A model generated the notes under the pieces. It was given only the letters and a program-made list of their open reading frames with translations. It searched no databases and had not been told where the DNA came from. From assembly GCF_004917065.1 (NCBI RefSeq), contig NZ_SSYA01000003.1, positions 62,001 through 126,000 of the forward strand: a stretch of 64,000 bases of DNA, given 5' to 3'. The position numbers and the translations under genes are program-made. Shown one piece after another: positions 34,001-60,588 of the stretch. This DNA is from Geomonas ferrireducens. Its GTDB lineage: Bacteria; Desulfobacterota; Desulfuromonadia; Geobacterales; Geobacteraceae. Position 1 is the stretch's first letter. Each line of letters starts with the position of its first letter.

Positions 34001-35030
34001 GAAGACCCTGGATACCCTGCGGACCCTGTGCGCCGGTGTCACCTTTGGGACCCTGCGGACCGGTGGCCCCTGCCGCACCGTCCGCACCTGCGGGACCGGT
34101 TGCGCCTGCAGCGCCGTCGAGGCCCTTAGCTGCCACGAGCAGCCAGGTGGTGGTGCTGGTTCCGGGGACATCGTTTGCTGTTGCCGCACTGGCGGCTACA
34201 TAGGTGCTGCCCTGGTATTGCACCGCCTCGGTCGCGTTGTAATCGCGCGCGGTCCACTCGCCCTGCCAGATCATCCCTCTGGGACCGGGGGCGCCTTCCG
34301 CCCCTTGCGGACCCTGCGGGCCTGTCGCGCCCATGGGACCAACGGGGCCTACCGGACCGATGGGGCCCTGGATCCCCTGCTCGCCTTGCGGACCGGTTGC
34401 ACCGGTGTCCCCCTTGATGCCCTGGATGCCCTGGTCCCCTTTGGGACCCTGCGGTCCTGTCAGGCCGATCGGACCCTGGATGCCTTGGTCACCCTTCGGC
34501 CCCTGCGGACCGATCTCGCCTTGAATACCCTGGATACCCTGGGCACCGGTGTCCCCCTTGAGACCCTGGATGCCCTGGTCGCCTTTGGGACCCTGCGGAC
34601 CTACCTCGCCCTGGATGCCCTGGATCCCTTGAATGCCTTGCGGTCCCTGGGGACCGGTGGCGCCGGTTTCACCCTTGGCGGCCACGAGTTTCCAGTCGAG
34701 CGGCGACTGGTCGGGGATCGCGTTGATGTTGGCGCGAAGTGCCACGTAGGAACTGCCGTTGTATTGCACCACGGAGTCCTTCGCGTAGCCCGGCGTCGCG
34801 CTCCAGTCACCCTGCTGGTGCAGCGTGTTGGTGAGGTTGGAACCGTCGCCCGCATAGGAGGTGGCGCTTACGTTGCCGTCTGCGGTCACGTTGAAGGTGG
34901 TGTTGCCGGAACTGTCCTTGACGGTGAGTCGGTTCACCTCGGCGTTTGCTGCGCCGGAAACCAGTCCCACGAGCAGCGTGGCCATGCCAAGGCTCCTGTA
35001 GTACTGCCTTCTCTTGAACTTCTTTCCCAT
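31083..35030 (-). CDS. Giant collagen-like secreted protein with CBM5/12-like inserts and tail-fibre-like C-terminus
   Basis: About 1315 residues. A signal peptide ([14 protein letters not shown], then a hydrophobic stretch ending in Ala-Asn-Ala) leads to a short beta part, then a Gly-X-Y region of several hundred residues ([21 protein letters not shown]). This is broken by five ~50-residue modules. The first is [20 protein letters not shown] and the others follow the pattern WxGEWxAxDY, xxVQYxGSxYxA and VPGxxxxxWxLVAAKG. They resemble CBM5/12 carbohydrate-binding modules. The C-terminal ~230 residues contain [16 protein letters not shown], a motif common at the ends of tail-fibre-like and adhesin proteins. 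It probably trimerises through the collagen repeats and acts as a stalk with glycan-binding knobs. AAGGAGG precedes the ATG at 35030. It is 60 bases after the 1248-residue gene and likely co-transcribed. Confidence 0.9.
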
Positions 35031-35090
35031 TGGATCTGCCTCCTTTAAAAATTGAGCATCGAAAAATTTCAATAAGTAAGTTTCACAGGA

Positions 35091-38000
35091 CTATTGCAGT
35101 ACCAGCCCCTCCAGGACGGCTTCGCCGCTGTTTATCGTCAGCGAGTGGAGCTGCGTCGAACCGGTCTGGTTCTGGAATTGGCTGTCGTAGCCGCCTCTTA
35201 CCGTGACGGAGCGGTCCGCATCGAGCAGCAGGTCCTCGAGGGTGCTCACCGCGAGGCTCTGGATCACGCTTCCGGAGAAAGAGGCCTGGTAGGCCGCCTG
35301 CAGCGAGCCGTAGTATTCCTGGGTCCCCATGATGCGGAAGGGGGACTTGAAGAAGGCGTAGATGGTGTGGTCGCCGTTTGCCGGGCAGAGGGTGAAGGTG
35401 GAGGATGCGTTGTTCTGCCAGGCTCCGTCGACCTGGAAGTCGCCGAAGGTGAAGCCGTTATCCGGCGTGGTGGTGAAGTTCTGGCACGCCCCCGCCGCAA
35501 CGTTCACGTCGCCGGAAGGGGTGATGCTCCCCCCTGCGCTCGCGCTCGCGTGGATCACGTAGCTGCTCACGCCGCTGCCGGAGAGGGATACCTGCTTGTC
35601 GGCGGCGTACGGGTCGTTGGACGGGATGTGCAGGAGTGCGCTCTTCGCCCCTGCGCTTTCCGCGGTGAAATTCATGGTGATGCTGCAGCTTGCCGCCGGT
35701 GCGAGGGAGACCCCGGCACAGCCGTTGGCGGTGATGCTGAACTGCGCCGCGTCGGTTCCGGTTATGGTCGCGCTCCCAACACTCAGGTTGTATTGCCCGG
35801 CGTTGGTGACCGTGACCGTCTTCGTGGTGCTCGCGTTGATGGCGACGGAGCCGAAGGCCGCCGGGTTGGGGGTGGCGGAGATGACGGGGAGGAGCTTCGT
35901 CGCGACCTTCAGGGCCGTGTTGGTGACGTCGTAGAAGGCGATGTTCACGTTGTGGTTCGCGTCGACGACGAGTGCCGAGTACTGGCCGTAGTTGGTGCTG
36001 CCGCTGTCGGGGACCGCGGCCGGGGTGGTCCAGACGCCGTTGGGCGAGCGTTGCGCGTACATGAGCTGCCCGGTGCCGCCACCGTTGTTGCTGTAGAAAG
36101 CAACGTGGACGATGTCGAGCCCGTTTGCCTTGATCGAGGTGAAGGCCCCGGCGCTGCCAACGGGACCGAGGTCGTAGGGGGCGCTCCATGTGCCGCCGGT
36201 GGCCGCCTGCTTGTTGATGTACTGCAGGCGCTTGTTCGCGTCGACGTAGACCACGTGCAACAGGTCGTTGTTGTCGACGGTGATGGCCGGCGAGGAGACC
36301 GTGGTGTCGGTGAGCGTCGAGGTGACGAAGCCGCTTTCCTGCGCGGTCGGGTTCTCGGCGTACATCAGGCGGCCGTGGCTGCCGTTGGTCGGGTTGTAGT
36401 AGACGATGTGGATGTTGCCCAGCGAGTCAAGGGCGAGGTCGCTCTGTTTGCCCGCGCCCGCCTGCGGCGCCGTCGGCTCGAACTCGTGGTAGTACATGTC
36501 GCGCTCGTTCGCGTACCAGAGGTTGTAGCCGTCGGTGTAGCTGATGAAGGTGTTGCTGTTGGTCATGCTGCAGGGAGAGCCCTGGCAGAACTGCACGGCG
36601 CCGGTGAAGGTGTCGGTGGTCGTGTTGGAGATGGCCGGCTGCGGGTTCCCCATGGGGTCGACGCCGCCCGCTATGTCCTGCAGCTGCCAGTTGTTGGCAT
36701 CCACCGAGACGTAGAAGGGGGCGCCCGCGTAGTTGAGCGGATTAAGGTCGCTCCACTTGCGCGCCGAGACGTACTTGCGCTTGAGCGCCACCGGATCGTA
36801 GGTGTAGGCCATGACCCTGGGACCGGCCGGGGTGTAGACCGTTGCGGTACCCGCGTTGGTGACGTTGGGGATCGGCACGGTCTGTGACGCGCTCCAGGAG
36901 CCCGAGGCGTTGGTGGCGAGTTTCAAGACCGGTGTCGCCGCGGAGTTGTCCAGGTAGCCGATGGCAAGCTTGCCGTTGGCGGGGTTCGTCGCCATGGAGC
37001 AATACTTGCCGGTGTCGCTCCCCGTGTTGTCGACCGTGGTGACGCCCCAGGAGGTGACCGGGACCACCGGGTAGAAGACGGCGGTGATGCTGTGGTTCGC
37101 ACTCACCTCGGGGAAGGTGTAGGAGGTGACCGCGCCGAGCGGGGTCCCCATGTTGTCCGGCCCGGTGCCGTCTAAGTAGACGCCGGCGATGAGGTAGCCC
37201 GGGTTAGGCGTGATGGTGAAGGTCTTGTTGAGTCCGCCCGCAGCGCTCACCGCGCCGGAGGGGGAGATGGTGCCGCCGATGTCGGGGACCATGGAGCTGT
37301 TGTAGACCGCGGTGTAGATGGTGTAGTTCGCGCTCTGCGTGGTGGTACCTTTCAACGCCACCTGCTTGACCGGGAAGTTCGGGTCGTTGGAGGCGACGTT
37401 GAAGAGGGCGCTCTTGTCACCGGCGGAGAGCGGCGAGAAGCGGACCTCGGTGCTGCAGCTTGCCCCGGGGGCGAGTGAGAGCCCGGCGGTGCAGCCGTTG
37501 TTGCTCGTCACCAGGAACTCCGAGGCGTTGGTCCCGGAGATGGTCGGGGCGCCGGAGAGGGTGAGGTTCGTGGTGCCGCGGTTGGTGACGGTGACGCTTT
37601 TCACCGCCGCGGAGCCCTGGGCCGTATAACCGAAGAGAAGCGGCGCAGGGGCGGCGTCGATGGCCGGGGCCGGTTTGGTCGCCACCACGAGGGCCGTGTT
37701 CGCCACATCATAGAAGGCGATGTTCACCCGGTTGTACTGATCGATGGCGAGGGCGGCGTACTGCCCGTAGTCGCGGCTCGCACCGGTGTAGGTGATGGTG
37801 TCGGCTGCGCCGAAGGAGGAGCTTGCGCCCCCCTTCATGGCGTAGGTGAGGGCACTCGTGCCGCTGTTGTACCAGGCGGCGTGCACGTTGTTGGCGCCGT
37901 CGACCTTGAGGGTCAGGGAGCCGCCGGTCCTGCCGCAGGCGCCGATGTTGACCGGGGTACTCCAGGCGCCTCCGTCGGCGGCTGGCTTGCTCGTGTACCA

Positions 38001-38837
38001 GACGTTGTAGTTGGAGCCGCTGCCGTAGCTGTAGATGACGTGGATGACGTTGTTGCCGTCGATGGCGATGGCGGGGTTGACGAGGGCGCTCCCGGCAAGG
38101 GTCTGCAGTGTCGTTGCCAGCCCTGCAGCGGTCGGGTTCTTCGCGTACATGAGCTTGCCGGTCGGGTCGGCGTAGACCACGTGCACGTTGCCGTTGCCGT
38201 CGATGGCGAGGTCGCTTTGGCTCCCCGCCGGGGCGAAGGGGTACCACCGCATGTCCCGCTCGTTGGCGTACCAGAGTCCGCGCTCGGCGGGCAGGGCGTT
38301 GTCACTGCCGTTGTTGTAGGTGATGAAGGTGAAGCCCATGTACTGGACGGCGCCGGTCTGGGTGCCGGAGGCGATGGTTCCCATCACGGGCTCGGCAGCG
38401 CCGGTCATGGGGTTGATCCCCCCGGCGATGTCCTGGAGCTGCCAGCCGTCGCCGTTGATCTTCCTGGCCGCCTGGTACATGGTCCGTCCCGTGGCCGCGT
38501 TGTACGAGTAGGCCATGATGCGCGGCCCGCCGGGCGTATAGACGGTCGCCGTGGAGGCGTCGCTGGCGTTCGGGAGGATGTTCTTCAGGCTCTCCGTGTA
38601 CCAGCTCCCCGACACGTTGTTGGCGTATTTAAGATACGGGGCTCCCGAGGTCGAGGTGTCCAGGTAGCCCAGGTAGAGCTTGCCGGCCGGGTCGACCGCA
38701 ACGGAGAGGTTCTTTCCGGTCGCGCTCGCCGTGTTGTCGACCACGGACGCCGTCCAGGTGGAGGCGCGGGCCGGTTGCAGCGACAGCAGTAATAGAATAA
38801 CGGCTGCTGCGAGGTGATAGGCGCTTCTAAGTGTCAC
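35091..38837 (-). CDS. Large secreted protein with duplicated beta-propeller-like, ASH/choice-of-anchor and bacterial-repeat domains
   Basis: About 1248 residues. The signal peptide (TLRSAYHLAAAVILLLL, ending ARA) begins at a GTG at 38837 with AAGGAGG five bases upstream; the longer ATG frame has a non-signal lead. The protein is an internal duplication. Each half has ~400 residues of repeated x-Y-A-N-E-R-D-M and D-L-A-I/L-D-x-x-G-N-x-H-V/I-V-Y strands that resemble beta-propeller blades. Each continues with an Ig-like choice-of-anchor/ASH domain (LAPGASCSTEVRFSP and LAPAASCSITMNFTA) and a short Gly-rich repeat domain (GGTISPSGAVSAAGG and GGSITPSGDVNVAAG). A ~90-residue unique end follows. 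It is probably a cell-surface or matrix protein; no catalytic residues are evident. Confidence 0.87.
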   Translation of the reverse strand: MTLRSAYHLAAAVILLLLSLQPARASTWTASVVDNTASATGKNLSVAVDPAGKLYLGYLDTSTSGAPYLKYANNVSGSWYTESLKNILPNASDASTATVYTPGGPRIMAYSYNAATGRTMYQAARKINGDGWQLQDIAGGINPMTGAAEPVMGTIASGTQTGAVQYMGFTFITYNNGSDNALPAERGLWYANERDMRWYPFAPAGSQSDLAIDGNGNVHVVYADPTGKLMYAKNPTAAGLATTLQTLAGSALVNPAIAIDGNNVIHVIYSYGSGSNYNVWYTSKPAADGGAWSTPVNIGACGRTGGSLTLKVDGANNVHAAWYNSGTSALTYAMKGGASSSFGAADTITYTGASRDYGQYAALAIDQYNRVNIAFYDVANTALVVATKPAPAIDAAPAPLLFGYTAQGSAAVKSVTVTNRGTTNLTLSGAPTISGTNASEFLVTSNNGCTAGLSLAPGASCSTEVRFSPLSAGDKSALFNVASNDPNFPVKQVALKGTTTQSANYTIYTAVYNSSMVPDIGGTISPSGAVSAAGGLNKTFTITPNPGYLIAGVYLDGTGPDNMGTPLGAVTSYTFPEVSANHSITAVFYPVVPVTSWGVTTVDNTGSDTGKYCSMATNPANGKLAIGYLDNSAATPVLKLATNASGSWSASQTVPIPNVTNAGTATVYTPAGPRVMAYTYDPVALKRKYVSARKWSDLNPLNYAGAPFYVSVDANNWQLQDIAGGVDPMGNPQPAISNTTTDTFTGAVQFCQGSPCSMTNSNTFISYTDGYNLWYANERDMYYHEFEPTAPQAGAGKQSDLALDSLGNIHIVYYNPTNGSHGRLMYAENPTAQESGFVTSTLTDTTVSSPAITVDNNDLLHVVYVDANKRLQYINKQAATGGTWSAPYDLGPVGSAGAFTSIKANGLDIVHVAFYSNNGGGTGQLMYAQRSPNGVWTTPAAVPDSGSTNYGQYSALVVDANHNVNIAFYDVTNTALKVATKLLPVISATPNPAAFGSVAINASTTKTVTVTNAGQYNLSVGSATITGTDAAQFSITANGCAGVSLAPAASCSITMNFTAESAGAKSALLHIPSNDPYAADKQVSLSGSGVSSYVIHASASAGGSITPSGDVNVAAGACQNFTTTPDNGFTFGDFQVDGAWQNNASSTFTLCPANGDHTIYAFFKSPFRIMGTQEYYGSLQAAYQASFSGSVIQSLAVSTLEDLLLDADRSVTVRGGYDSQFQNQTGSTQLHSLTINSGEAVLEGLVLQ

Positions 38838-38946
38838 GGTACCCTCCTTTAGATTAAAATCTGCCGGCAGGTGGACGGCAGCGCTGAAATGAGAGCCGGG
38901 CGGGCAGTGCCGCGGGTCTCGCAATGCATTTTGTTTTTGATTCCTG

Positions 38947-38986
38947 GGCCTTAAACTCCCCCTTCGCAAAGGGGGGAGTTTAAGGC
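38947..38986. repeat. C-family hairpin repeat, long perfect palindrome
   Basis: GGCCTTAAACTCCCCCTT pairs with AAGGGGGGAGTTTAAGGCC around CGCA. The core CCCCCTTCGCAAAGGGGG recurs at 39.4, 40.8, 42.2, 42.3, 46.3 and 56.8 kb. Confidence 0.9.
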
Positions 38987-46658: not shown

Positions 46659-49286
46659 ATGATCAAGAAGGCGCTGCTGTTGTTGCTCATCCTCACCTGT
46701 CTCCCTTCGCTAGCCCTGGGGTGGACCCTGACTGCGAGGATCGGAAGTCCATCCGGGAGCATCGCCGGTGGTTCCCCCTACAAGGTTGTCACCACCGGGA
46801 CAGGCTATCTCACCATTCCGGCCGGCGACACCACGGTCGCCGTGACTCCGGCCGACGGCTACACCGTCTCCATGGTCACCCTTGACGGCGTCGTCCTCTC
46901 CGTTCCCTCCGCGGGGGGTAATGTCGCGGTGCCGCAGGAGGGGAAGACCTCGCGCACCCTGGTTGCCTACTTCACCTCGGCCACCTACTCGATGACGGCG
47001 AACCAGTCCTCCGGCGGCGTGCTGTCGCTGCAGCGGATCTCCCCCACCATCGGCACCATCACCACCACGACGCTCACCGGGCTGCGTACCGGCAACGTGG
47101 TGCGCGTCACCGCGACGCCAGACTCGGGGAGCAGCGCCACATCCCTTACCGTGGCGGGGAGCCAGGTCTGGAGCGGAAGCTCACCCTCGGCGGTCACCTA
47201 CGATTACACGGTGGGCACGAGCAACGTGAGTGCCCAGGCAAGCTTCGTGAGCATCCCGGTTGTTACGGCGCGCCTGTCGACGGCAACGACCAGTACCGCG
47301 GTCGGCACCCCGGTCACCCTCGATGCTTCGGGCACGACGAGCAACGATCCGCCCCTTTCCTACCGCTTCGAAGTGGTGACGGGTGATCCGGCCGCGGTGA
47401 CGCTAAGCCCCGCGGGGCCTGGCCCCACCGCCGTCACGAGCTTTACCGCCACGCTTCCCGGAAACTACGCGGTGCGGGTGACGGTCACCACGACACGCGG
47501 CGCGACCTCGACGGCGATCTCGCCCGTCATCACCGTGCTCACCAAGGCGGGGTATGACTCTGGCGAATGTCTCTCCTGTCACGCCAATCGGGATCCGGCC
47601 ATCGCCGCGGCTTACCAGCAATCCACCCACTATCTGACCGCCGCGGTAAGCTGCTCTAAGTGCCACAACCCGGACGGAAGCCTCGGGCACCCCTATCTCC
47701 CCGAGCCGGGCAGCTCCTGCCTGCCGTGCCATAGCACGGTGACGCCGCAGATCGCGACGGATTTCTCGGCCTCTCCGCACCTGAACACCGGCTGCATCGG
47801 CTGTCATTACGACCATACGGCGACCTCGACCTTCAACCGCTGCAGCGTCTGCCACGGACAGCCGCATCCCTGGGAGAGCCTGGGGATCTGCGGCCGCTGT
47901 CACCTGACCCACAACCCGTACACGATCACGGCGCCGCCGCCGCACTTCAACTCCTTCACCACGGCGCGCTACGTAACCCCGCGCATCAGCTGCGACAACT
48001 GTCACAGGACCATCGACGAGGCAGGGGTGAGCACCTTCAACATCTACAGCGCGAACCGGCAGTGGGGACGCTCGGGCAAGGGGAACAGCACCTCGCCCTC
48101 CTATGTCTCCTACGACTTCAAGACGCTCGGCACCGCGCTCCCCGCCACACTGGCCACCTCCGTCGGGCCGGACTGCGTCCGGTGCCACACGACGACCGGA
48201 TACGTGAAATACGTGGAATCGGGCTTCAAGGACATCGCGCCGTTCGAGGACCCGAGCGGGCAGCGCTCCCGCGAGATGATCGTCTGCTCGGCCTGCCACA
48301 CCCCGACCCCCTTCCTTTCCTACGACGTCGTGGACTGGGACACCTACACCTATGTGCCGGCGTTCAGCAGGCGGGACGTGCCGCAGGTGATCGCCTACTA
48401 CAACTACAGCACGAGCGGGACGAAGGTGCTGAACCCGATGGTGATGCCTTACGACGCCGGGGAGTCGAACAACTGCATCGTCTGTCACGCCGGACGGACG
48501 GGGGGGAGCACGCTGAGGCTACTGGCGCAGCTCTACGGCAGCTCGGGCACCTTCTGGGGGAGCGTTTCCTTCATCGACCCGCACGGCATGGCGGCGGCCG
48601 GGGTTTTGTACGGCAAGAACGGGTACGAATTCTTCAGCAAGAGCTACAGCGGCACTTTCGCGGTCCATGGGGCTTTGGGGGGCGACGACCCTGGGGCATG
48701 CATCTTCTGCCACATGTCCGCCGACCAGAAGCACACCTTCTCGCCGGTGGAGAAGGACTCCTCCGGGGCCATCACGCAGATCACCGCCTTCGCCCCGACC
48801 TGCAGCGGCTGTCACGACCAGACGTCGAAGCCGATCCCGCTGAACGACCCGGCGCAGCTTGAAGCGAAGCGACTGGAATACGCCTCGGCGCTTAAGGCGC
48901 TCGCCGCGGTCCTTGCGCGCAAGGGGATCAACTACAACGGCGCGCTCTCGCCGTACTTCTTCACCACGGCGGATAAGGCCGCACAGGGTGACGCGACGGC
49001 CTTCCGCAACTGGCGCGCCTTCTACGTGGCGGGGAGCCCGCCGCTCTACAGCGGCAGCGACCTCATGGGGGCCGCCTTCAACCTGAGGCTTTTGGACGGG
49101 GAGAAGGGTGGGTACGCGCACAACAGCTACTACGCGAAAAGGCTTACCTACGATTCGATCGACCTCGCCGACGACGGAAAGCTGAACGCGACGGTCGCGA
49201 TGACGCTGCAGAACCTCCCGGCGACGGAGAAGTTCACCGAAGAGGACCGGTCGCGTGCCGTTTCCTGGGTCGGGGTGAGACCGTAG
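46659..49286 (+). CDS. Dodecahaem c-type cytochrome with N-terminal Ig/PKD-like domains
   Basis: About 875 residues. The signal peptide is IKKALLLLLILTCLPSLALG. The first ~290 residues are beta-rich, including a PKD-like domain (about 205-295; VGTPVTLDASGTTSNDPPLS). Twelve CxxCH sites follow between about 304 and 720: CLSCH, CSKCH, CLPCH, CIGCH, CSVCH, CGRCH, CDNCH, CVRCH, CSACH, CIVCH, CIFCH and CSGCH. The last ~150 residues lack haem. Twelve haems is the number in some outer-membrane Geobacter cytochromes such as OmcB, but the domain layout differs, so I do not assign it to that family. It probably carries electrons at or beyond the outer membrane. The start is set by AAGGAGG. It ends at a terminator, just before the cohesin/dockerin operon. 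Confidence 0.92.
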   Translation: MIKKALLLLLILTCLPSLALGWTLTARIGSPSGSIAGGSPYKVVTTGTGYLTIPAGDTTVAVTPADGYTVSMVTLDGVVLSVPSAGGNVAVPQEGKTSRTLVAYFTSATYSMTANQSSGGVLSLQRISPTIGTITTTTLTGLRTGNVVRVTATPDSGSSATSLTVAGSQVWSGSSPSAVTYDYTVGTSNVSAQASFVSIPVVTARLSTATTSTAVGTPVTLDASGTTSNDPPLSYRFEVVTGDPAAVTLSPAGPGPTAVTSFTATLPGNYAVRVTVTTTRGATSTAISPVITVLTKAGYDSGECLSCHANRDPAIAAAYQQSTHYLTAAVSCSKCHNPDGSLGHPYLPEPGSSCLPCHSTVTPQIATDFSASPHLNTGCIGCHYDHTATSTFNRCSVCHGQPHPWESLGICGRCHLTHNPYTITAPPPHFNSFTTARYVTPRISCDNCHRTIDEAGVSTFNIYSANRQWGRSGKGNSTSPSYVSYDFKTLGTALPATLATSVGPDCVRCHTTTGYVKYVESGFKDIAPFEDPSGQRSREMIVCSACHTPTPFLSYDVVDWDTYTYVPAFSRRDVPQVIAYYNYSTSGTKVLNPMVMPYDAGESNNCIVCHAGRTGGSTLRLLAQLYGSSGTFWGSVSFIDPHGMAAAGVLYGKNGYEFFSKSYSGTFAVHGALGGDDPGACIFCHMSADQKHTFSPVEKDSSGAITQITAFAPTCSGCHDQTSKPIPLNDPAQLEAKRLEYASALKALAAVLARKGINYNGALSPYFFTTADKAAQGDATAFRNWRAFYVAGSPPLYSGSDLMGAAFNLRLLDGEKGGYAHNSYYAKRLTYDSIDLADDGKLNATVAMTLQNLPATEKFTEEDRSRAVSWVGVRP

Positions 49287-49393: not shown

Positions 49394-49423
49394 TAGACAA
49401 AGGGTCTTGAGCTGGCGTATTAT
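49394..49423 (+). promoter_or_regulatory. Putative sigma-70 promoter of the cohesin/dockerin operon
   Basis: TAGACA (49394-49399), an 18-base spacer and TATTAT (49418-49423); each hexamer differs from the consensus at one base. It lies directly after the cytochrome terminator and gives a leader of about 360 bases. Confidence 0.5.
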
Positions 49424-49429
49424 AGGGCG

Positions 49430-49791
49430 CCGTTTTAGCCCGTTTGAGGCCGTCCCTCGCCGCAGCAGGCGCGCTGCGATGGACAGGCTCCGTTGCAAGC
49501 TACGCGGTTGCGGAGGCGGGCAAAAGGCGTTGCCGTTCCGCCAATTGACGGAATGGCGTGGGAACGCACCCCAATGATAACCGGCACATCGAGCCAACTT
49601 GGCGTTTTATCTGGCTAAAGTCTCGTCCTTTCGATATTTTTTCTGCCGCTCCTCTTTGGGAGCACTTATTGCTACAGCATCTGTTGTCCCGGCAGGGCCG
49701 GGTCGAGAGCCGCACCAGACGCGGCTCTCTGGGAGACAGGCCGAACCGCCCCTGGCTGAAGCGCCCGGGTGGTGAACAAAGAGGAGGCAGG
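49430..49791 (+). promoter_or_regulatory. Long structured leader of the cohesin/dockerin operon
   Basis: Two clear hairpins. In 49527-49567, GCGTT-GCCGTTCCG pairs with CGGAATGGC-GTGGG-AACGC: 14 base pairs, a G-U pair and a five-base bulge around CCAATTGA. In 49705-49729, GAGAGCCGC pairs with GCGGCTCTC around ACCAGAC. The region then runs to GAGGAGG before the ATG at 49792. The sequence does not match a GEMM, cobalamin or TPP riboswitch that I can recognise. A cis-acting RNA is an inference from structure and length. Confidence 0.4.
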
Positions 49792-51816
49792 ATGCTGTTC
49801 AACATTTTTAAGCGATTTAACGTAGTATCCGCCGCAGGGACGGCACTCGCCGGCGCGCTAGTCGCGCTCGTGCTCCTTTTAGCGCCGCAGGCGGCGCTCG
49901 CGACGGTGGCAACTGGTACGCTGACCACGAGCCACTGGAAGCAGGGGACCTCCGAGGGGTACTCCATCACCGCGACGGTCACGGTGCCGCTAGCGCAGAA
50001 GGGGAGCGCGCAGATGTACATCTCCGGCGCGCAGGTTTCCTCGACCGCGCTCGTTGAGGACACCGCCGGGACCACCTACAGCTTGACCTTCCCGGTCGCG
50101 TCGCGTCCCGCGCTCAACGAGGCCTACACGGTCGACATCACCTACTTCGACAACCCCGACACCCCGACACCGCCCGAGACCCTGAACCTCACGGTCGGCA
50201 CGGTGCTCGACTCTTTCGCCACCATCACCTCCCCGGATTGGGGTGTCGCGGGCTCCACGGCTCCCACCTTCACCTGGCAGGCCCCTGCTTCTCTCCCCGT
50301 TGGCGGCGTGGCGGGGTACCAGGTTGCCTTGAGCGGTGTGACTGACACTCCGTGGGTTTCCGCCAACCTTCCTGCCACGACGTTTACCGTCGCCTACACC
50401 GGGAGCACCGCGCTCACCCGCGGGTTCACCTACCCCTGGTCCGTGACAACCTTCGACGCGGCCGGCAACAGCGCGGAGAACCGTGACGGTCTCGTCATGA
50501 TCGACGCCAACATCTCCGGTAAGGTGACCGACTTCTCCGGCAACCCGATCGAAGGGGCTACGGTGACCGTTTACCTCACCACCGGTTCGGTCTACACCAA
50601 TATCCCCTCCTCCGTCACCAGGGCGGATGGCAGCTACTACATCGGCGGGTTGAACACCGCGAGCTACAGGATCCGGTACTCCAAGGACGGGAGGGTGGTC
50701 TGGTACAGCAACCGCCTCGACGCCTCCAGTGTCTACGACAGCTACGGAAACACCTACGGTTCGTTGAAAACCGGTGTGAACGCCGTACTTACCGGGTGGG
50801 GCGCCATCGAAGGCAAGGTGGTGAACAGCTCCAATTCCGGAATTACCGGTGTGACCGTTCAGCTTCTGGACGCAAGCGGCCAGGCAACCTCCTACCCCTC
50901 GGTTACCACGACCGCCGGCGGGGCTTTCACCTTCACGCTCATCGCCCCGGGGATCTACAAGATGCGGGTGATCGGTACCGGCGGGTACGCCACCCTGGAT
51001 TACCCTTACTCCGTTGCCGTGACCGACGGCTACATCTCAGCTACGAGCGATGCCGTGCTCCAGAAAATCAACGTAACCGGCACAGTCACCAACTCTCTAG
51101 GCGCACCGGTTCCCGGTGTCTGGGTCTACCTTTACACCTCAGCCGGGCTGCTGGTCGACACCTTCCCCGGCGCCAAGACCGCAGCGGACGGGACTTACGT
51201 CGTTGCCGGGGTAGGCACAGGAAACTACAAGGTCCTCTTCGACGCGGGCTCCAGCTACGCGAAGCAGTACTACAACCACAAGGCGACGCTGGATGCCGCC
51301 GATATCATCACCGTCGGCACCACGGCGCTCTCCGGCATCAATGCCGTGCTCGGTTCGGGCAAGCCGACCGTCACCACCTTCACCGTCCCCGCGACCTCGT
51401 CGTCTCTTACCGTGAGCGGGATCACTTTCACCGCAAGCGAGCCGACCTACGGCGTCGCAGGCTACATGATCACCGAGAGCGCGTCCGCCCCCTCCGCTTC
51501 GGACTCCGGCTGGAAGAGCACGGCTCCCACGAGCTACACCTTCACCGGGGTGGGTGAAAAGACCCTATATGCGTGGGCCAAAGGGGCAACCGGCCTCATC
51601 TCCGATTCCGTGGCGCGCAGCGTTACCGTCGACGCCTCTGCCGTAACCCCCGGAGACAGCGATGGGAACGGGGTGATCACCATCTCGGAAGTGAAATTGG
51701 CCCTCGATATGTATCTCGGGGTGCAACCCTCGGCATACTTTGTGGATACGGACAAGAACGGTTCGGTCAGCCTTCAGGAGGTCCAGAAGGTGATCAACAG
51801 CTTCCTCGCGCAGTAG
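49792..51816 (+). CDS. Secreted protein with carboxypeptidase-regulatory-like repeats and a C-terminal dockerin-like domain
   Basis: 674 residues. An extended signal peptide (MLFNIFKRFNVV, then a hydrophobic stretch ending ALA) is followed by a ~190-residue beta-rich part. Three CarboxypepD_reg-type beta-sandwich repeats come next (ANISGKVTDFSGNPIEGATV, GAIEGKVVNSSNSGITGVTV, INVTGTVTNSLGAPVPGVWV), then an Ig-like domain that recurs in the 900-residue protein downstream (GEKTLYAWAKGATGLISDS). The last ~60 residues hold two EF-hand-like loops, PGDSDGNGVITISE and VDTDKNGSVSLQE, with Asp/Asn at positions 1, 3 and 5 and Glu at 12, as in dockerin domains. The likely role is a surface protein docked by Ca-dependent cohesin binding. 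GAGGAGG precedes the ATG. Confidence 0.87.
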   Translation: MLFNIFKRFNVVSAAGTALAGALVALVLLLAPQAALATVATGTLTTSHWKQGTSEGYSITATVTVPLAQKGSAQMYISGAQVSSTALVEDTAGTTYSLTFPVASRPALNEAYTVDITYFDNPDTPTPPETLNLTVGTVLDSFATITSPDWGVAGSTAPTFTWQAPASLPVGGVAGYQVALSGVTDTPWVSANLPATTFTVAYTGSTALTRGFTYPWSVTTFDAAGNSAENRDGLVMIDANISGKVTDFSGNPIEGATVTVYLTTGSVYTNIPSSVTRADGSYYIGGLNTASYRIRYSKDGRVVWYSNRLDASSVYDSYGNTYGSLKTGVNAVLTGWGAIEGKVVNSSNSGITGVTVQLLDASGQATSYPSVTTTAGGAFTFTLIAPGIYKMRVIGTGGYATLDYPYSVAVTDGYISATSDAVLQKINVTGTVTNSLGAPVPGVWVYLYTSAGLLVDTFPGAKTAADGTYVVAGVGTGNYKVLFDAGSSYAKQYYNHKATLDAADIITVGTTALSGINAVLGSGKPTVTTFTVPATSSSLTVSGITFTASEPTYGVAGYMITESASAPSASDSGWKSTAPTSYTFTGVGEKTLYAWAKGATGLISDSVARSVTVDASAVTPGDSDGNGVITISEVKLALDMYLGVQPSAYFVDTDKNGSVSLQEVQKVINSFLAQ

Positions 51817-51869
51817 CGCCGGGGGATGGATTCTCGTCCGGTAACTTAGTAACCAACAAGGAGAGGAGT

Positions 51870-52625
51870 ATGAAGCTTAAAGGTCTGTTGATAGCCGTCT
51901 TGCTGCTGGTCGGTGCGACCTCGGCATTCGCGGTGGATGCGACGCTTAACGTCGGGGATGGGTTTTACACCGCCGGCGGAACGGTCACGGTGCCGATAGT
52001 GCTGAAGACCAACGGGAACAACGTTTCGGCCGTCGCACTGGACGTGAAGTACAACACGACGCTCCTCTCGGCGCCGGTCGGCACTCTCGGCGTAGCGGCG
52101 AACAGTGCGAAGAAGGCGCTCTATAGCAATGTGTTGGCCCCTGTCGGCACTGAGGGCACCTATCGCATACTCATCGCCGGTGGCATGATCGAAAGTTCGA
52201 GCTATCCCAACGGCGGGATCATGACGGACAAAACCGATGCCGGCACCAGCGGACTCATGACCGATGGCGTCGTCGCCCTGGTCAAGTTCACCGTTGCCAA
52301 CACCGCCAGTGGTGCAGTCACGGTACAGACCACTCCCGGCGCTGTCGATCCCCTGGCGAACGCGGTGACCGTCACCGGGGCCGTCGTCGACATGGTGGCC
52401 GGGGTAGCCGGCGATTGCAACGGGGACGGCAATGTTAACGTCTTCGACATAGTCAACACCGTCAATATCATTTTCAACAAGCCAGGTTTCACCTTCAACA
52501 AAAGATGTGACATCAACATGGTGAACGGCGTCTGGAACCCGGATGGCGGGGCCAACATTTTCGACATCGTCGCACTTTCCAATGTTATCCTCGGCAAGTG
52601 GAATCTCCCCGACCCCAAACCTTAA
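51870..52625 (+). CDS. Secreted cohesin-like plus dockerin-like protein
   Basis: 251 residues. The signal peptide is MKLKGLLIAVLLLVGATSAFA. Residues ~22-180 form a cohesin-type beta-sandwich: LNVGDGFYTAGGTVTVPIVL, VSAVALDVKYNTTLL and GVVALVKFTVANTASGAVTV. The C-terminal dockerin-like domain has DCNGDGNVNVFDIVNTVNII, with Asp/Asn at loop positions 1, 3, 5, 9 and 12. A second half-repeat, GGANIFDIVALSNVIL, keeps its helix but has a degenerate loop. A protein with both partners could bridge or polymerise if its dockerin binds a cohesin in the operon. The start follows AAGGAGAGGAG. It is 53 bases after the first gene and 14 before the third. Confidence 0.87.
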   Translation: MKLKGLLIAVLLLVGATSAFAVDATLNVGDGFYTAGGTVTVPIVLKTNGNNVSAVALDVKYNTTLLSAPVGTLGVAANSAKKALYSNVLAPVGTEGTYRILIAGGMIESSSYPNGGIMTDKTDAGTSGLMTDGVVALVKFTVANTASGAVTVQTTPGAVDPLANAVTVTGAVVDMVAGVAGDCNGDGNVNVFDIVNTVNIIFNKPGFTFNKRCDINMVNGVWNPDGGANIFDIVALSNVILGKWNLPDPKP

Positions 52626-52639
52626 ACGGAGGTTATAAG

Positions 52640-55342
52640 ATGAAAAGATGGCTTATTCTGCTGTGTGCGCTGTTCTCTTTATACAGCCCGCAGTCATTGC
52701 TGGCGGCTACCGCAGCCTTGACCATTGGCACTGTGCAGGGCACTGCTGGCCAGAGCGCCTCTGTGCCTGTGAGCATCAACAACGGAGGAGCGCAGGTAGG
52801 CGGCCTTCAGTTGCAGATCGCTTTCGACCCGACGAAGTACTCCGCGCTGCCTACGGTAACCAAGGGCGCGGCTGCCACCGTTTCGGGTATCGCATTCTCC
52901 TCGAACGTGTCCGCTGCCGGGACCATCACCATCCTGGCTTACGCGGACGGCTCTGTTGACGGCGCCGTGATCGCCAACGGGACCGTTGCCAGTCTGAGCT
53001 TCCCTGTGAAATCCGATGCCGTCGGCACCTTGCCCATCACCTTCGGCACTGCTCCCCTGGTGAGCGACCCGCTTGGCGCCGCTGTCAGCGTCACGGCCAC
53101 CAACGGCGCTATCACCGTATCCGATACGGCGGCCCCGACGGTTTCGGCCTTCACCATCCCGGCGACCTCAACCTCCAGGACCATTACCAACATCGGCATC
53201 ACCGCGACCGACAACCTTGCCGTCACCGCATACAACGTTTCCGAGAGTGCCACCGTACCCACAACCGGCTGGAGCACTACCGTTCCGACGCAGTACAACG
53301 TTACCGCGAGCCTGTCGACCGGCGTGGCCAAGAGCGTCACTCTCTACGGCTGGGCTAAGGACGCCGCAGGCAACGCCGCGTACAAGACAGCCGCGGTCAC
53401 CATCACGCTGCCCGACACCACCGCTCCGACGGTCACCGGCGTAACCATCCCCTCGACCTCGACCACGCTTCAGGTTGCCGTCTCCGGCTTCACCGCGACC
53501 GACACCGTTGGCGTTACCGGCTACCTGCTGACCGAGACCTCGAGCACCCCGGCTCTGACCGACACCGCCTGGAAATCCACCGGTAGCGCATGGACCAGCT
53601 TCACCTTCTCCTCGGGCGGGGCCAAAACCCTCTACGCCTGGGCCAAGGACGCTGCGGGCAACATCTCCACCCCGCTGACGCGGAACATCACGATCACCCT
53701 GCCGGACGCAGAAGCGCCGGTGGTCTCCGCCTTCACCGTCCCGGCTACCTCCATCACGACTGTCATCCCGGTCAGCACCTTCACGGCGACCGACAACAAG
53801 GCGGTAACCGGCTACCTCGTGACCCAGAGCTCCACCAAGCCCACCGCCGCCACGGCCGGCTGGACCACCACCGCGCCCACCAGCTACACCGTGACCGGCA
53901 CCATATCGCAGGGCGTAACCACGAACGTGACCCTTTACGGCTGGGCGAAGGACGCAGCAGGCAACGTCTCCGCCGGTGTGAGCGACGTAGTCGCCATCAC
54001 CCTCCCCGACACCACTAAGCCGGTGGTCGGCACCTTCACCGTTCCTGCCACCGCCACCAGCGCTACCGTGACCGTCACCGCCTTCACCGCCACCGACAAC
54101 CTCGCCGTCACGGGCTACCTGGTCAACGAGAGCGCTACCGCTCCGGCGGCCGACGCGACCGGCTGGACCGCAAACGCCCCGACCAGCTACACCTTCACCG
54201 GCCTGCCGCAGGGGACCAGCAGCAAGACCCTTTACGCTTGGGCCAAGGACGCCGCAGGCAACGTGTCGCTCAGCAAGAGCGCGTCGGTTTCCATCACCCT
54301 GACCGGCCCGACCCTGACCCTGACCGGCATGCTCGCCGACGGCGCGACGACCAAGAACCCGGCCCTCACCGTGGCCGGCACCGTGACCGGCACCTCGCTT
54401 TCGGGCCTCACCGTCAAGGTGAACTCCGGCGCGGCGCAGAACATCACCTACGATCAGAACGGCGCGTTCTCCACCGCGGCCACCCTCGCGGAAGGGGCTA
54501 ACACCGTCGTAGTAACCGCCACCGATGCCAACGGCCAGACTTCGGTGACCAGGAACATCACCTACAACCCGAACGCTGCCGACCTCGCGGTGACCACGCC
54601 GGTTTCCGACAGCTTCGTCAAGAGCTCTCTCGTCGACGTGACCGGCACGGTCGGCGCGCCGCAGACCACCACGCTGACCATCGCGCTGAACGGCGGCACC
54701 CCCGCTACTGTCGCCCTGAACGGCGGCAACAGTTTCACCTATCAGCTGACCCTCGTTAAAGGGGTCAACACCATCGTGGTCACCGCTACCGACACGGTGA
54801 ACGGCCCGCACACCCAGTCCATCACCGTCACCTACGATCCGGATGCGCCGGTCCTCGCGGTCACCGCGCCGGCCGACTCCTTCGCCACCGCCAAGTCGAG
54901 CGTAACGCTCAGCGGTACCGTGACCGATGCACTCACCGCCCCCGCTGTCGTAGTCAAGCTCGACGGTACGAACATCCCGACCCAGCCCGTGGTGGGCACC
55001 AACGGCTCGTTCAGCGCGACCATCGACCTGCCGACCGTGAAGACCTACTCCGTCACGGTAACCGCCACCGACGAGTCGGGCAACAGCTCGACGGTGACCC
55101 GCACCGTGATCAGGAAGAACCCGAGCGGCAACCTCACCGACGGCGTTTCGGCTCCGACCATCACCGACGTTCAGAACGTGCTGAAGTTCGCCCTCGGGCT
55201 CGCAACCGCAACCGCCGATCAGAAGACCAACGTCGACGTAGCCCCGCTCGTCAGCGGCAAGCCGGCCCCGGACGGGGCGGTGGACGCAGGCGACGCCCTG
55301 GTGATCCTCGAGAAGATCACCGGTACCGTCAGCTGGCAGTAG
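52640..55342 (+). CDS. Secreted cohesin protein with Ig-like repeats and a degenerate C-terminal dockerin-like domain
   Basis: 900 residues. After the signal (MKRWLILLCALFSLYSPQSL, ending ALAA) comes a clear cohesin domain at about 25-160: LTIGTVQGTAGQSASVPVSI, VGGLQLQIAFDPTKYSALP, GTVASLSFPVKSDAVGTLPI. Five ~95-residue repeats follow (TATDNLAVTGYLVNESATAP, KTLYAWAKDAAGNVS), then three Ig-like repeats (LSGTVTDALTAPAV-type). The end, GVSAPTITDVQNVLKFALG and DGAVDAGDALVILEKITG, has the two helices of a dockerin fold but lacks full Ca loops. It is likely a surface scaffold. CGGAGG precedes the ATG. Confidence 0.87.
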   Translation: MKRWLILLCALFSLYSPQSLLAATAALTIGTVQGTAGQSASVPVSINNGGAQVGGLQLQIAFDPTKYSALPTVTKGAAATVSGIAFSSNVSAAGTITILAYADGSVDGAVIANGTVASLSFPVKSDAVGTLPITFGTAPLVSDPLGAAVSVTATNGAITVSDTAAPTVSAFTIPATSTSRTITNIGITATDNLAVTAYNVSESATVPTTGWSTTVPTQYNVTASLSTGVAKSVTLYGWAKDAAGNAAYKTAAVTITLPDTTAPTVTGVTIPSTSTTLQVAVSGFTATDTVGVTGYLLTETSSTPALTDTAWKSTGSAWTSFTFSSGGAKTLYAWAKDAAGNISTPLTRNITITLPDAEAPVVSAFTVPATSITTVIPVSTFTATDNKAVTGYLVTQSSTKPTAATAGWTTTAPTSYTVTGTISQGVTTNVTLYGWAKDAAGNVSAGVSDVVAITLPDTTKPVVGTFTVPATATSATVTVTAFTATDNLAVTGYLVNESATAPAADATGWTANAPTSYTFTGLPQGTSSKTLYAWAKDAAGNVSLSKSASVSITLTGPTLTLTGMLADGATTKNPALTVAGTVTGTSLSGLTVKVNSGAAQNITYDQNGAFSTAATLAEGANTVVVTATDANGQTSVTRNITYNPNAADLAVTTPVSDSFVKSSLVDVTGTVGAPQTTTLTIALNGGTPATVALNGGNSFTYQLTLVKGVNTIVVTATDTVNGPHTQSITVTYDPDAPVLAVTAPADSFATAKSSVTLSGTVTDALTAPAVVVKLDGTNIPTQPVVGTNGSFSATIDLPTVKTYSVTVTATDESGNSSTVTRTVIRKNPSGNLTDGVSAPTITDVQNVLKFALGLATATADQKTNVDVAPLVSGKPAPDGAVDAGDALVILEKITGTVSWQ

Positions 55343-55371
55343 GCCATCAATAACTAACAGGAGAGAAACCT

Positions 55372-56538
55372 ATGAAAATCTGGAAAGGACTATTCGTCGC
55401 AGCTCTTCTGATGCTCACTGCAGCCTGCGGTGGCGGCGGTGGGGGAAGTAAATCCACCACGGTCACCGGGGTCGCTGCCGCCGGTGTCATCAAAGGGGGC
55501 ACCGTCAAGGTCTTCGCCCCGTACAGCAGCGCAACCGGAGCCGATAAGAAACAGCTTGGCACCACAGCCACTACCGATGCCAACACCGGTGTCTACTCCG
55601 TGAACATCGGGAGCTACACCGGCCCGGTGATCGTCGAGGTGTTCGGCAACTACACCGATGAGGCGACCAACCAGACCGCCACCATCCCGTCCACCGCTCC
55701 GCTGCGCGCCATGGCGGTCACCACCTCGGGTAAGGTCGATGTCGCCGTCACGCCGCTCACCGAGCTCGCCGCGCGGCAGGCCGTCACTCTTTCCGGTGGC
55801 GCCGGCAACAAGGTCACTGCTGCCAACATCGACACCGCCAACGCCCAGATCTCGGATCTGTTCAAGGTGAACGACATCATCGCAACCCAGCCGCTTGACG
55901 CCAGCGCACCGCTCACCGGGACCTCGGACCAGAAAAACTACACCCTGGTGCTCGCCGCGCTTTCACAGTTGGGGGTGATCAACAGCACAAGCCTCTCCGC
56001 GACGCTCGACACGGTGGCCGCCGGTATCAACACCTCCGGGGTCATGACCGCTCCCGTGGCGACCAGTATCACCGATGCGCTCGACGCCTTCGTGACTAAC
56101 ACCAACAACAAGACCGGGATCACCGCCACGACGCTTCCCGGCGAGCTTGCCGACATCGGCACGACCACGGTGACGCTTACCATGGTACTTACGGGAACCG
56201 GCGTGAAGAGCGTGCAGACCGACATCACGCTCCCCGCCAACGTGAGCGTTGAGACTGACAACACCGGCGCCTTTGCCTCCGGCGTGCTGACCAACCTGAT
56301 CGGCGGGACCAACGTCTCCCTCGTTGGGAGCGAGCTCACCGCGAGCAGCGTGCGCGTGATCTTCAACCGGGCAGACGTGACGCCCATGCCGGCCGGTGAT
56401 ATCGCCACCGTGAAATTCCTGGTGGCCCCCGGTGTGGCCGAACCCGCCGCTACCGCCTTCACCACCGCCAACACCATGCTGAAGGACGCAAATGGTGCGG
56501 TAGTGACCGGCGCAAGCCTCGCCCTCGTCAAACGCTAG
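55372..56538 (+). CDS. Lipoprotein with a cohesin-like C-terminal domain
   Basis: 388 residues. MKIWKGLFVAALLMLTAACG carries the lipobox LTAAC, followed by a Gly tract (GGGGGGS) that frees the protein from the membrane. The N-terminal ~80 residues look like a CarboxypepD_reg-type fold (VAAAGVIKGGTVKVFAPYSS), the middle is helical and Ala-rich, and the last ~130 residues (VTLTMVLTGTGVKSVQTDIT, MPAGDIATVKFLVAPGVAEP) resemble a cohesin fold. As the only lipid-anchored member of the operon it is the natural anchor for the others; this is an inference. It lies 29 bases after the previous gene and ends the operon at a strong terminator. Confidence 0.8.
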   Translation: MKIWKGLFVAALLMLTAACGGGGGGSKSTTVTGVAAAGVIKGGTVKVFAPYSSATGADKKQLGTTATTDANTGVYSVNIGSYTGPVIVEVFGNYTDEATNQTATIPSTAPLRAMAVTTSGKVDVAVTPLTELAARQAVTLSGGAGNKVTAANIDTANAQISDLFKVNDIIATQPLDASAPLTGTSDQKNYTLVLAALSQLGVINSTSLSATLDTVAAGINTSGVMTAPVATSITDALDAFVTNTNNKTGITATTLPGELADIGTTTVTLTMVLTGTGVKSVQTDITLPANVSVETDNTGAFASGVLTNLIGGTNVSLVGSELTASSVRVIFNRADVTPMPAGDIATVKFLVAPGVAEPAATAFTTANTMLKDANGAVVTGASLALVKR

Positions 56539-56573
56539 CGAGGCGGCCTTCGGGCCTGAACCTGCCGTAGTAC

Positions 56574-56609
56574 AAAAAAGGACCTTCCCTGCCGGGAAGG
56601 TCCTTTTTT
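56574..56609 (+). terminator. Terminator of the cohesin/dockerin operon
   Basis: AAAAAAGGACCTTCCC pairs with GGGAAGGTCCTTTTTT around TGCC: a 16-bp stem with flanking A and T tracts. Confidence 0.95.
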
Positions 56610-58478: not shown

Positions 58479-59111
58479 ATGCGAGCTAACAAAAGAACAA
58501 ACAAGATCGTGTTGACGGCCGCTGTTGCGATGACCCTTTGCTCTGCCATTACCCAAGTGAAGGAATCAGCGGCTTTCCAGCCCATCGGTGTGGCCTCCCG
58601 CGGTAACGGCGAAACCTGTGCGCTGACCGTGCAGATGCAGAACAAGCAGTTCCGGGCGCGTTACATGCAGAAGGTGGCGCAGTATCAGGACGGCGCGGCC
58701 CCGAAGGTGGCGAGCGTCGAGGAAATGTACCAAAACATCGAACCGGCCTCCTTCTTCCCCGACGACAACGAGCCCGTTTCCAACACCATCGGTGTTGATC
58801 CTCTGAGCCTCGACTGCCTCGGTTGCCACGACGGCTCCAGGGCAAGCGACGTCACCATCAACCTAAGAAACGACCCCTTCCGGCGCCAGCAGATGCAGGG
58901 CACTGCGAAGGATCACGCGATAGGGATGGATTACGCAGCCTATGCATCCAACCCCCGCGATTTCAAGCCGGTCTTCGGCAATTCGAAGATGGTCTTTGTG
59001 GACGGTAAGGTCGGCTGCCTCACCTGCCATGATCCCGCCAACCAGGAACGCGGCCACCTCGTCATGAGCGACCGTCGCAGCGCGCTCTGCCTCACCTGCC
59101 ATAACAAGTAA
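58479..59111 (+). CDS. Secreted trihaem c-type cytochrome
   Basis: 210 residues. The signal is RANKRTNKIVLTAAVAMTL, with cleavage near residue 32. Three haem sites are CLGCH (113-117), CLTCH (180-184) and CLTCH (204-208). The segment ETCALTVQM (about 45-53) has a single Cys but no CxxCH, possibly a lost site. CLGCHDGSRA is close to CMSCHDGAVA of the 0.7-kb cytochrome, and both end in CLTCH shortly before the C-terminus, so they are probably related. AAGGAGG precedes the ATG. It is monocistronic, ending at a shared hairpin. The role is probably periplasmic electron transfer. Confidence 0.9.
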   Translation: MRANKRTNKIVLTAAVAMTLCSAITQVKESAAFQPIGVASRGNGETCALTVQMQNKQFRARYMQKVAQYQDGAAPKVASVEEMYQNIEPASFFPDDNEPVSNTIGVDPLSLDCLGCHDGSRASDVTINLRNDPFRRQQMQGTAKDHAIGMDYAAYASNPRDFKPVFGNSKMVFVDGKVGCLTCHDPANQERGHLVMSDRRSALCLTCHNK

Positions 59112-59171: not shown

Positions 59172-60527
59172 TTAGGGCGGGGTCACCTCGATGGTGGCCC
59201 TTCTGTTTTTCGACCTTCCTTTTTCCTCTCTGTTGCTCTCGATCGGCAGACGGCATCCAAAGGCCTGCTCGGTAAGCTTCACCTTCACCCTGCCGATCTT
59301 CTTGACGAGCGCCTGCCTTACACTGATCATGCGCGCTCTCGATAGGTCGACGTTCTTGTCTGAAATACCGTTGCGGTCGGTGTGCCCTTCGATGTGGACC
59401 TCGCTTCCGGGGTGCTTCTTTACATAGGCGGCGATCCTGTTGATTTCGGGCATGAACTGCGGCTTTATCACGGCACTGCCGTTGTCGAAGAAGATGGTCG
59501 TCGACGGTTTCTTAAGTACCCTCTGCTTCTGCGTCGCCGGAGGATCGAGGGGGCATAGGATGGATTCGATCATCTCCTGGGAGGACGCTTCGGGAAGCGG
59601 CGCCGCGAACGGCTCGGCAAGCTCGACCTTCACCGGCACCTTCGTCTGCGGGGCGGGCTCGGGCTGGGGCTGGGCCTCGACCGGTTTCGCAGCGGGGGCT
59701 ACCGCCTCCTGCGGCGCTGCAGTCTTTGGTTGCTCCGGCTGGCTCAACAGACCGGTGACCGCGGCGACCGGTGCCGCGATAACCGCAGCGGGAAGCGGAA
59801 CCTGCGCCGGTGTTTCCGGCTCGGCCGGTTTCTCAGGTGCCTTCTTACCCGGCTCCTGCTGCTTGTCGAAGTCGATGACCGGGACGGCGGGTGCCGCGGT
59901 CCCTTTTCTCTCTGCCGGTGGGGGAGGAGGCAGCGGCAAGCGCCTGATCTTCGTGTCGCGGTCCATGAGGAAGCTGAGGCCGAGCATGTACTGGAAGTCG
60001 TTGCGGCTTCCGACGTTGAACAGGATGTTCTGGCGCACGTCCAGCCTCAGGGCCAGGTACTCCGTGAGGAAGTACTTCATCCCGCCGCCCCAGGCCAGTA
60101 GCGGTGATCCCTCGGTTGCGGTCGGGCGCTCGATCACCATACCTCCTGCGCCAACGGCGAGAAAGGGGACCAGGCGCTTACGGGGGAGAAACGGATAGAT
60201 GGCGTCGATCCTCATCAGGTAGGCGCGGGCCTTCGTGTTGTCCTTGGATGAGGTGGAGGAGGCGTAGGAGAGCCCCCCCTCGATGCCGAAGCTGTCCACA
60301 ATGCTGGTGCCGACGATGTCGTAGCCGAACCTGATGTCGTACACGAGGCTGTGGCGCAGTTCATCCTGCCCGGAGAACTTAAGGCCGCCGGCGGAGACGT
60401 TCAGGGTGTAGTCGTGCGGGGTCTCAGCCGCCAGAACCTGGGACGTGTCGGCCAGCGCAGCGAGGAAAAGCAGGGCGCACGCCGCGGCCCTGATCCTTGA
60501 TACCGGTTTTCTAGCGGTTTTTTGCAT
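59172..60527 (-). CDS. OmpA-family outer-membrane protein with N-terminal beta-barrel and Pro/Ala-rich linker
   Basis: About 451 residues. A signal peptide ending in VLAAE is followed by a ~170-residue beta-barrel-like part (YTLNVSAGGLKFSGQDELRH, RAYLMRIDAIYPFLP). A ~130-residue Pro/Ala/Glu-rich linker comes next (PQPEPAPQTKVPVKVEL), then an OmpA_C peptidoglycan-binding domain: TIFFDNGSAVIKPQFMPEIN, VHIEGHTDRNGISDKNVDLS and NRRATIEV, with Asp and Arg of the diaminopimelate pocket present. It links the outer membrane to the cell wall. The start at 60527 gives a proper signal; the upstream ATG at 60557 is possible but has no ribosome binding site. It converges with the trihaem cytochrome gene. 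Confidence 0.9.
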   Translation of the reverse strand: MQKTARKPVSRIRAAACALLFLAALADTSQVLAAETPHDYTLNVSAGGLKFSGQDELRHSLVYDIRFGYDIVGTSIVDSFGIEGGLSYASSTSSKDNTKARAYLMRIDAIYPFLPRKRLVPFLAVGAGGMVIERPTATEGSPLLAWGGGMKYFLTEYLALRLDVRQNILFNVGSRNDFQYMLGLSFLMDRDTKIRRLPLPPPPPAERKGTAAPAVPVIDFDKQQEPGKKAPEKPAEPETPAQVPLPAAVIAAPVAAVTGLLSQPEQPKTAAPQEAVAPAAKPVEAQPQPEPAPQTKVPVKVELAEPFAAPLPEASSQEMIESILCPLDPPATQKQRVLKKPSTTIFFDNGSAVIKPQFMPEINRIAAYVKKHPGSEVHIEGHTDRNGISDKNVDLSRARMISVRQALVKKIGRVKVKLTEQAFGCRLPIESNREEKGRSKNRRATIEVTPP

Positions 60528-60588
60528 AGGTGGCACTCTGTGGATGGTTATCTGCAAAAAATGTCAAGGCGCGTTGCCGCGCTCCATG

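Follow-up and report, generated by a model that had tools for sequence, protein, structure and literature searches.

In a 64,000-nucleotide stretch of the Geomonas ferrireducens genome (contig NZ_SSYA01000003.1, positions 62,001 to 126,000; hereafter the window), four co-directional genes at 49792-56538 probably encode a surface scaffold that is lipid-anchored, contains no enzymes and is joined through cohesin-dockerin bonds of two classes, with gene 4 anchoring gene 3 and gene 3 carrying gene 1 either directly or via gene 2. Here the snap-together system known from cellulose degraders seems to work with no cellulose-degrading enzymes involved. In the anchor tier (bond B), the gene 4 protein would be tethered to lipid at Cys19 and present its cohesin, CohB, which would hold the C-terminal dockerin (class DocB) of the long gene 3 protein with its immunoglobulin-like (Ig) repeats. 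In the outer tier (bond A), the N-terminal cohesin of gene 3 would hold the dockerin of gene 1 itself or be linked to it by way of gene 2, and in relatives that lack gene 2 the bond between genes 1 and 3 would necessarily be a direct one.

From the sequence comparisons below we strongly infer that DocB would bind CohB. The class-A partners of the outer tier and the location of the scaffold on the outer surface are presumed, as is a role in adhesion, matrix formation or contact with minerals or other cells, the last because the docked proteins are repeat proteins and the operon sits amid multiheme cytochromes and OmpA. A direct part in electron transfer would be speculation.

The gene 4 lipoprotein and the DocB/CohB pair

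Gene 4 begins with a signal peptide and a lipobox (LTAAC) whose cysteine, Cys19, is invariant in the sequences of all 40 of 40 homologues. The protein has no Pfam match, and hhalign against the gene 2 family returned nothing in its C-terminal domain; a sequence-profile proof that this domain is a cohesin failed, and fold evidence was used instead. An AlphaFold model built with 40 homologues has a mean predicted local distance difference test (pLDDT) score of 90.5 and a predicted template modelling (pTM) score of 0.85, and in a Foldseek search of the PDB the matches at ranks 1-6 and many of those further down are cohesins, with ~120-150 residues covered, a Foldseek probability of 1.00 and template modelling (TM) scores to the targets of ~0.5. 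The E-values are modest because the query is a multi-domain protein, and a TM score of ~0.5 between a model and the PDB cohesins indicates a shared fold, not close kinship. The nearest structures are type II cohesins and cohesin-like modules (1tyj, 2y3n, 2w1n and 2vo8), and in a second model, of the orthologue from G027, type II cohesins rank first and the Archaeoglobus fulgidus cohesin 2xdh is among the matches. Predicted fold and gene pairing together support a cohesin fold of divergent sequence at the C-terminus, where the earlier note on this DNA, made from the letters alone, had placed a cohesin-like domain. When the G027 dockerin and gene 4 were modelled as one artificial chain, with stops read as glycine, the dockerin reached a pLDDT of 93-97 at a pTM of 0.83; no interface is claimed from this model.

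The C-terminus of gene 3 falls in a dockerin class, DocB, with the consensus GDLNGDGKVDISDALLALQIAVG...GDVAPLVNGKPxPDGxIDIGDALVILRK. The family profile matches solved dockerins (best E 1e-3), most members have a canonical first loop, and the gene 3 dockerin aligns with that of gene 2 at a probability of 93%, in line with the C-terminal dockerins that had been assigned to both genes. The second calcium loop of DocB carries an insertion of 8-9 residues (9 in gene 3) that is shared with the gene 2-type dockerin and absent from the gene 1 dockerin of this strain.

Within the family, 28 of the 48 searched genomes have homologues of gene 4, often several of them, and directly upstream of 38 of 45 gene 4-type loci, on the same strand, lies a dockerin-tailed DocB gene; a whole-genome search adds one such locus, which brings the count to 39/45. 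A search of the class with the gene 4 cohesin alone as query detected the CohB domain in 52 of 146 genomes. At least 44 of 84 CohB genes have a listed DocB gene on their own strand no more than 1.6 kb upstream, where randomly shifted positions give 0.045 such cases on average. These counts use listed positions in genomes present in both the DocB and CohB searches, and 44/84 is a lower bound, weaker DocB matches such as that in G008 being outside the list. Other families of the order have the pair as well. The partner in G199 and G008 consists of signal peptide, lipobox and cohesin alone (179 and 184 amino acids), which marks the cohesin as its essential part. Given the recurrent unit and these minimal partners, genes 3 and 4 are very probably an anchoring pair. 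The invariant lipobox cysteine and the pairing lend sequence-level support to the lipoprotein as the putative anchor of a non-cellulosomal operon, which the earlier note had proposed together with a synteny search; that search was strongly positive, with the full or a three-gene set in relatives and the two-gene core of gene 3 and gene 4 type across the order.

Many CohB genes without a DocB neighbour encode small lipoproteins. In this genome an orphan 169-residue lipobox-cohesin protein (L132:6593-7102) lies ~45 kb from a solitary 1886-residue DocB giant (L058:3281-8941). The distance between such a CohB lipoprotein and a DocB giant that likewise stands alone is ~40-45 kb in G000 and several congeners. 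This arrangement suggests that unlinked CohB and DocB giants may pair in trans.

The docked proteins in the loci examined carry Ig, FN3, PKD, MBG or beta-propeller repeats. DocB giants with BNR/Sortilin-type beta-propellers (L086:2313-7328, L055:4595-9430 and L066:26-6580) are likely the source of the 'sialidase' annotations in Geobacter; L066 scores above the cut-off of the NCBIfam 'glycosylhydrolase' model and L055 just under it. A 783-residue open reading frame (ORF) in G144 (L140:4298-6649), with a start like a family 2 glycosyltransferase and a DocB-like dockerin end, may be an artefact of ORF calling.

Class-A modules and competing architectures

The dockerins of genes 1 and 2 each have two EF-hand-like calcium-loop repeats by sequence and Pfam. 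In gene 1 both are canonical 12-residue EF loops, with Pfam EF-hand scores slightly below cut-off; in gene 2 the first loop is canonical and the second has an insertion. The cohesin of gene 2 scores 33.2 bits in Pfam (cut-off 24.1), and that of gene 3 also lies above the cut-off, so that the dockerin loops of gene 1 and the N-terminal cohesins of genes 2 and 3 named in the earlier note were all found again. Cross-identity of the CohA modules, intended to assign dockerin to cohesin, gave no signal, and a scan of genome contigs with gene 2 returned solely distant matches in metagenome-assembled genomes, mostly to its dockerin end, and was uninformative. Since gene 2 is missing from G025 and G038, which keep genes 1, 3 and 4 (in G025 the cohesin-like stretch of gene 3 is internal, after an extra CarboxypepD_reg domain), the minimal chain is gene 1-gene 3-gene 4, and gene 2 is an optional adaptor, which this strain shares with G017, G019 and G027. 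Gene 1 is proposed to be the docked outer component.

Comparison with the close relatives G017 and G019 reveals an abrupt change in identity along the operon. Gene 1 is similar through residue 613 (in the comparison with G019 the final window has 22 of 25 positions identical) and then drops to 3/19; gene 2 is 46-48% identical; the cohesin of gene 3 is ~40% identical to about residue 144, after which similarity is regained, and the DocB dockerin and gene 4 are 89-95% identical, with the flanking cytochrome at 84-87%. Within the same block the relatives G017 and G019 resemble one another, their cohesins at 68-91%. In those two genomes the gene 1 dockerin is close to the gene 2 dockerin (77-81% identity), whereas in this strain the two share 17% and the gene 1 dockerin instead resembles those of G025 (54%) and G038 (37%). 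By this profile, a single contiguous block of ~1.4 kb that comprises exactly the class-A modules and ends at domain boundaries was replaced. The simplest reading would be that cognate class-A modules must move together. If this were general, the outer surface of the order could carry exchangeable cohesin-dockerin cassettes, a DocB/CohB lipoprotein socket with strain-specific outer modules whose cognates are swapped as one block, forming a lock-and-key layer of each strain's own for cell-cell or cell-mineral contact near cytochromes; we hold this extension only tentatively and think it more likely wrong than right.

A polymerising fibre would result if gene 2, and gene 3 with it, chained to itself through its own modules, with gene 1 as cap and gene 4 as anchor. 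Genes 2 and 3 do each bear a cohesin and a dockerin, and the similar gene 1 and gene 2 dockerins of G017 and G019 could be taken by one and the same cohesin. The gene 3 dockerin, however, belongs to a class that tracks with lipoprotein cohesins, the gene 1 and gene 2 dockerins have little in common in this strain, and G025 and G038 make do without gene 2, so that a long homopolymer seems rather unlikely. Because gene 2 is optional and the dockerin of gene 3 is of the other class, paired with gene 4, an ordered chain of two specificities seems to us more likely for this strain than free polymerisation. The earlier statement that the two bifunctional proteins can chain agrees with their module content but has to be qualified for the optional nature of gene 2 and the pairing of the gene 3 dockerin class with gene 4.

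Several observations weigh against the anchored two-bond scaffold and the joint movement of its cognate modules. Roughly one in two listed CohB genes lacks a listed DocB neighbour; the gene 3 dockerin has a degenerate first EF loop (NLTDGVSAPTITD); the block replacement is a single event that a recombination hotspot could explain; and in a mirror-tree comparison the DocB/CohB distances correlate at r = 0.66, not above the 0.72 for DocB against the N-terminal domain of gene 4. We rejected the mirror-tree result as proof of DocB-CohB co-evolution, the correlation being present but not specific, and co-inheritance as a gene pair accounts for much of it. Both the degenerate loop and the solitary DocB and CohB genes would suit a reading in which the two folds work in cis or serve as structural caps that bind calcium and the proteins are separate surface adhesins, yet the DocB-CohB pairing lies far over chance and lipoproteins made of lipobox and cohesin alone make little sense without a partner, which renders this quite improbable. 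Least credible, and in our view very nearly untenable, is a cellulosome-like scaffold that docks polysaccharide-degrading enzymes encoded elsewhere. Dockerin-bearing Geobacter transcripts are interpreted as cellulose degradation in PMC6199725, and some docked BNR-propeller proteins match the NCBIfam glycosylhydrolase model, but the partner proteins examined are built of Ig, FN3, PKD and propeller repeats, and the four operon proteins contain no enzyme domain above family cut-off in Pfam or NCBIfam, which agrees with the earlier note. The genome-wide cohesin search found four single cohesin matches, none in tandem, and between the operon and this search neither dockerin-bearing enzymes nor a carbohydrate-binding multi-cohesin scaffoldin came to light. 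Linked cohesin and dockerin genes in a non-cellulolytic context, the hallmark of non-cellulosomal systems, are what we find.

Operon layout and genomic setting

The organisation described in the earlier note, four genes with gaps of 53, 14 and 29 nucleotides (nt), one promoter-like site and one strong terminator, was recovered in full (Table 1). Gene starts were picked by ribosome-binding site (49792, 51870, 52640 and 55372 for genes 1 to 4), and a Pfam scan gave Ig-like repeats in genes 1 and 3 and EF-hand or dockerin-type matches in genes 1 and 2. Promoter-like sites number 3 per 10.5 kb against 1.4 +/- 1.1 by chance, a count near chance; the site at 49394 lies within an island of 41-44 nt that is 91-93% conserved in G017 and G019. 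The leader that follows is structured (fold z-score -2.4) and may be a cis-regulator or just slow to diverge. No known riboswitch emerged, an Rfam scan of the whole window and of the leader having returned nothing above threshold. The leader was also considered as a repeated element, and this was rejected: it occurs solely ahead of this operon, in three genomes.

Table 1. Features of the operon, in window coordinates (all on the + strand).
Feature	Position	Strand	Basis or remark
Sigma-70-like promoter, TAGACA-N18-TATTAT	49394..49423	+	Promoter scan; inside conserved island
Long 5' leader, 368 nt	49424..49791	+	Last ~277 nt 82-83% conserved in two relatives
Gene 1, 674 amino acids, secreted; Ig/FN3-like and CarboxypepD_reg repeats, C-terminal dockerin	49792..51816	+	ORF, Pfam
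Replaced block relative to G017/G019: gene 1 dockerin, all of gene 2, gene 3 cohesin	51631..53072	+	Identity comparisons
DocA1, gene 1 dockerin	51652..51813	+	Pfam EF-hand matches; same type in G025, G038
Gene 2, 251 amino acids, small secreted adaptor; cohesin and dockerin	51870..52625	+	Pfam; orthologues in G017, G019, G027
CohA2, gene 2 cohesin	51969..52352	+	Pfam Cohesin PF00963, 7e-8, above cut-off
DocA2, gene 2 dockerin	52407..52610	+	Pfam Dockerin_1 0.0022 (weak); L053 orthologue above cut-off
Gene 3, 900 amino acids, putative primary scaffold/adaptor; cohesin, Ig-like repeats, dockerin	52640..55342	+	ORF, Pfam
CohA3, gene 3 cohesin	52715..53119	+	Pfam Cohesin 62.2 bits, E 1.9e-16 (whole-genome search; cut-off 24.1)
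Gene 3 Ig-like stalk, four ~100-residue repeats and three Glucodextran_B-type	53120..55100	+	Pfam
Gene 3 dockerin, DocB class	55124..55339	+	Degenerate first loop, extended second loop
Gene 4, 388 amino acids, predicted lipoprotein anchor	55372..56538	+	ORF, homologues, AlphaFold
Lipobox cysteine Cys19, then poly-Gly tether	55426..55428	+	Homologue alignment
CohB, predicted gene 4 cohesin	56155..56535	+	AlphaFold and Foldseek; repeated with orthologue
Intrinsic terminator	56574..56609	+	16-pair stem, T-run; strong

Upstream of the operon lies a PKD-containing multiheme cytochrome gene (46662-49286), and downstream follow genes for a lipoprotein, a small cytochrome and an OmpA protein (58479-59111 and 59172-60557); parts of this setting are kept in G017, G019, G025 and G038. 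The window holds another pair of large repeat-protein genes on the minus strand (31083-35072 and 35091-38969), a 1329-residue collagen-repeat protein with a CBM5/12 match beside a 1292-residue ASH/Ig-like protein. Elsewhere in the genome (L056:3260-5800, C3 ~398260-400800) the secretin encoded in a type II/IV-pilus-like secretion locus has a Pfam cohesin domain at its end (40.9 bits), and 5 kb downstream a 459-residue protein (L056:11103-12482) has a weak cohesin match and a C-terminal EF-hand-like motif. Such a cohesin-tailed secretin could hold dockerin proteins during export.

Comparison with known systems

What is new here is the recurrent DocB/CohB two-gene unit and a second, class-A module set with block replacement; non-cellulosomal cohesin/dockerin modules in general were already known. 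The unit is not described in the open-access literature on dockerin, cohesin and Geobacter, as far as its available excerpts go (subscription literature lay outside the scope). It supplies a concrete partner candidate for the abundant dockerin-tailed giant repeat proteins of this metal-reducing family, and if the lipobox-cohesin socket is real it explains how these giants stay on the cell. It also makes it possible to test directly, in cultivable bacteria, what cohesin/dockerin modules outside cellulosomes do, and protein engineering in diderms gains new candidates for orthogonal cohesin-dockerin pairs.

The type I/II tiers of the cellulosome in Clostridium thermocellum, and the type II cohesins of Bacteroides cellulosolvens, resemble our model in having two bond classes, one that loads cargo and one that anchors the scaffold. 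In contrast to the cellulosome, the operon has no enzymes or carbohydrate-binding scaffoldin, each protein has a single cohesin, and the anchor would be a diderm lipoprotein rather than an S-layer homology (SLH) or sortase anchor. Many phyla have cohesin/dockerin proteins outside cellulosomes (Peer et al. 2009, as cited in PMC9012536 and PMC2930009). Like modules of the Archaeoglobus fulgidus type, one of which (2xdh) is among our fold matches, those described here lie outside cellulose degradation, and they differ in their recurrent lipoprotein-cohesin partner, their second module class and the natural exchange of a block.

According to PMC6199725, dockerin-bearing fibronectin/sialidase genes of Geobacter are highly expressed in a soil metatranscriptome during Fe(III) reduction, which was interpreted as cellulose degradation. 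By that description these are probably dockerin-tailed giants of the type discussed here, for which the available text identifies neither an anchor nor a cohesin partner, and our results suggest surface anchoring instead of cellulose degradation. A parallel by description may be the putative adhesins with cohesin and dockerin modules of anaerobic methanotrophic (ANME) archaea and their sulfate-reducing partners (PMC9012536 and PMC10553843), which are likewise organisms of extracellular electron transfer in which cohesin and dockerin proteins occur together. The ANME versions include multi-cohesin scaffoldins and S-layer links, and the available excerpts describe no lipobox-cohesin/DocB unit among them.

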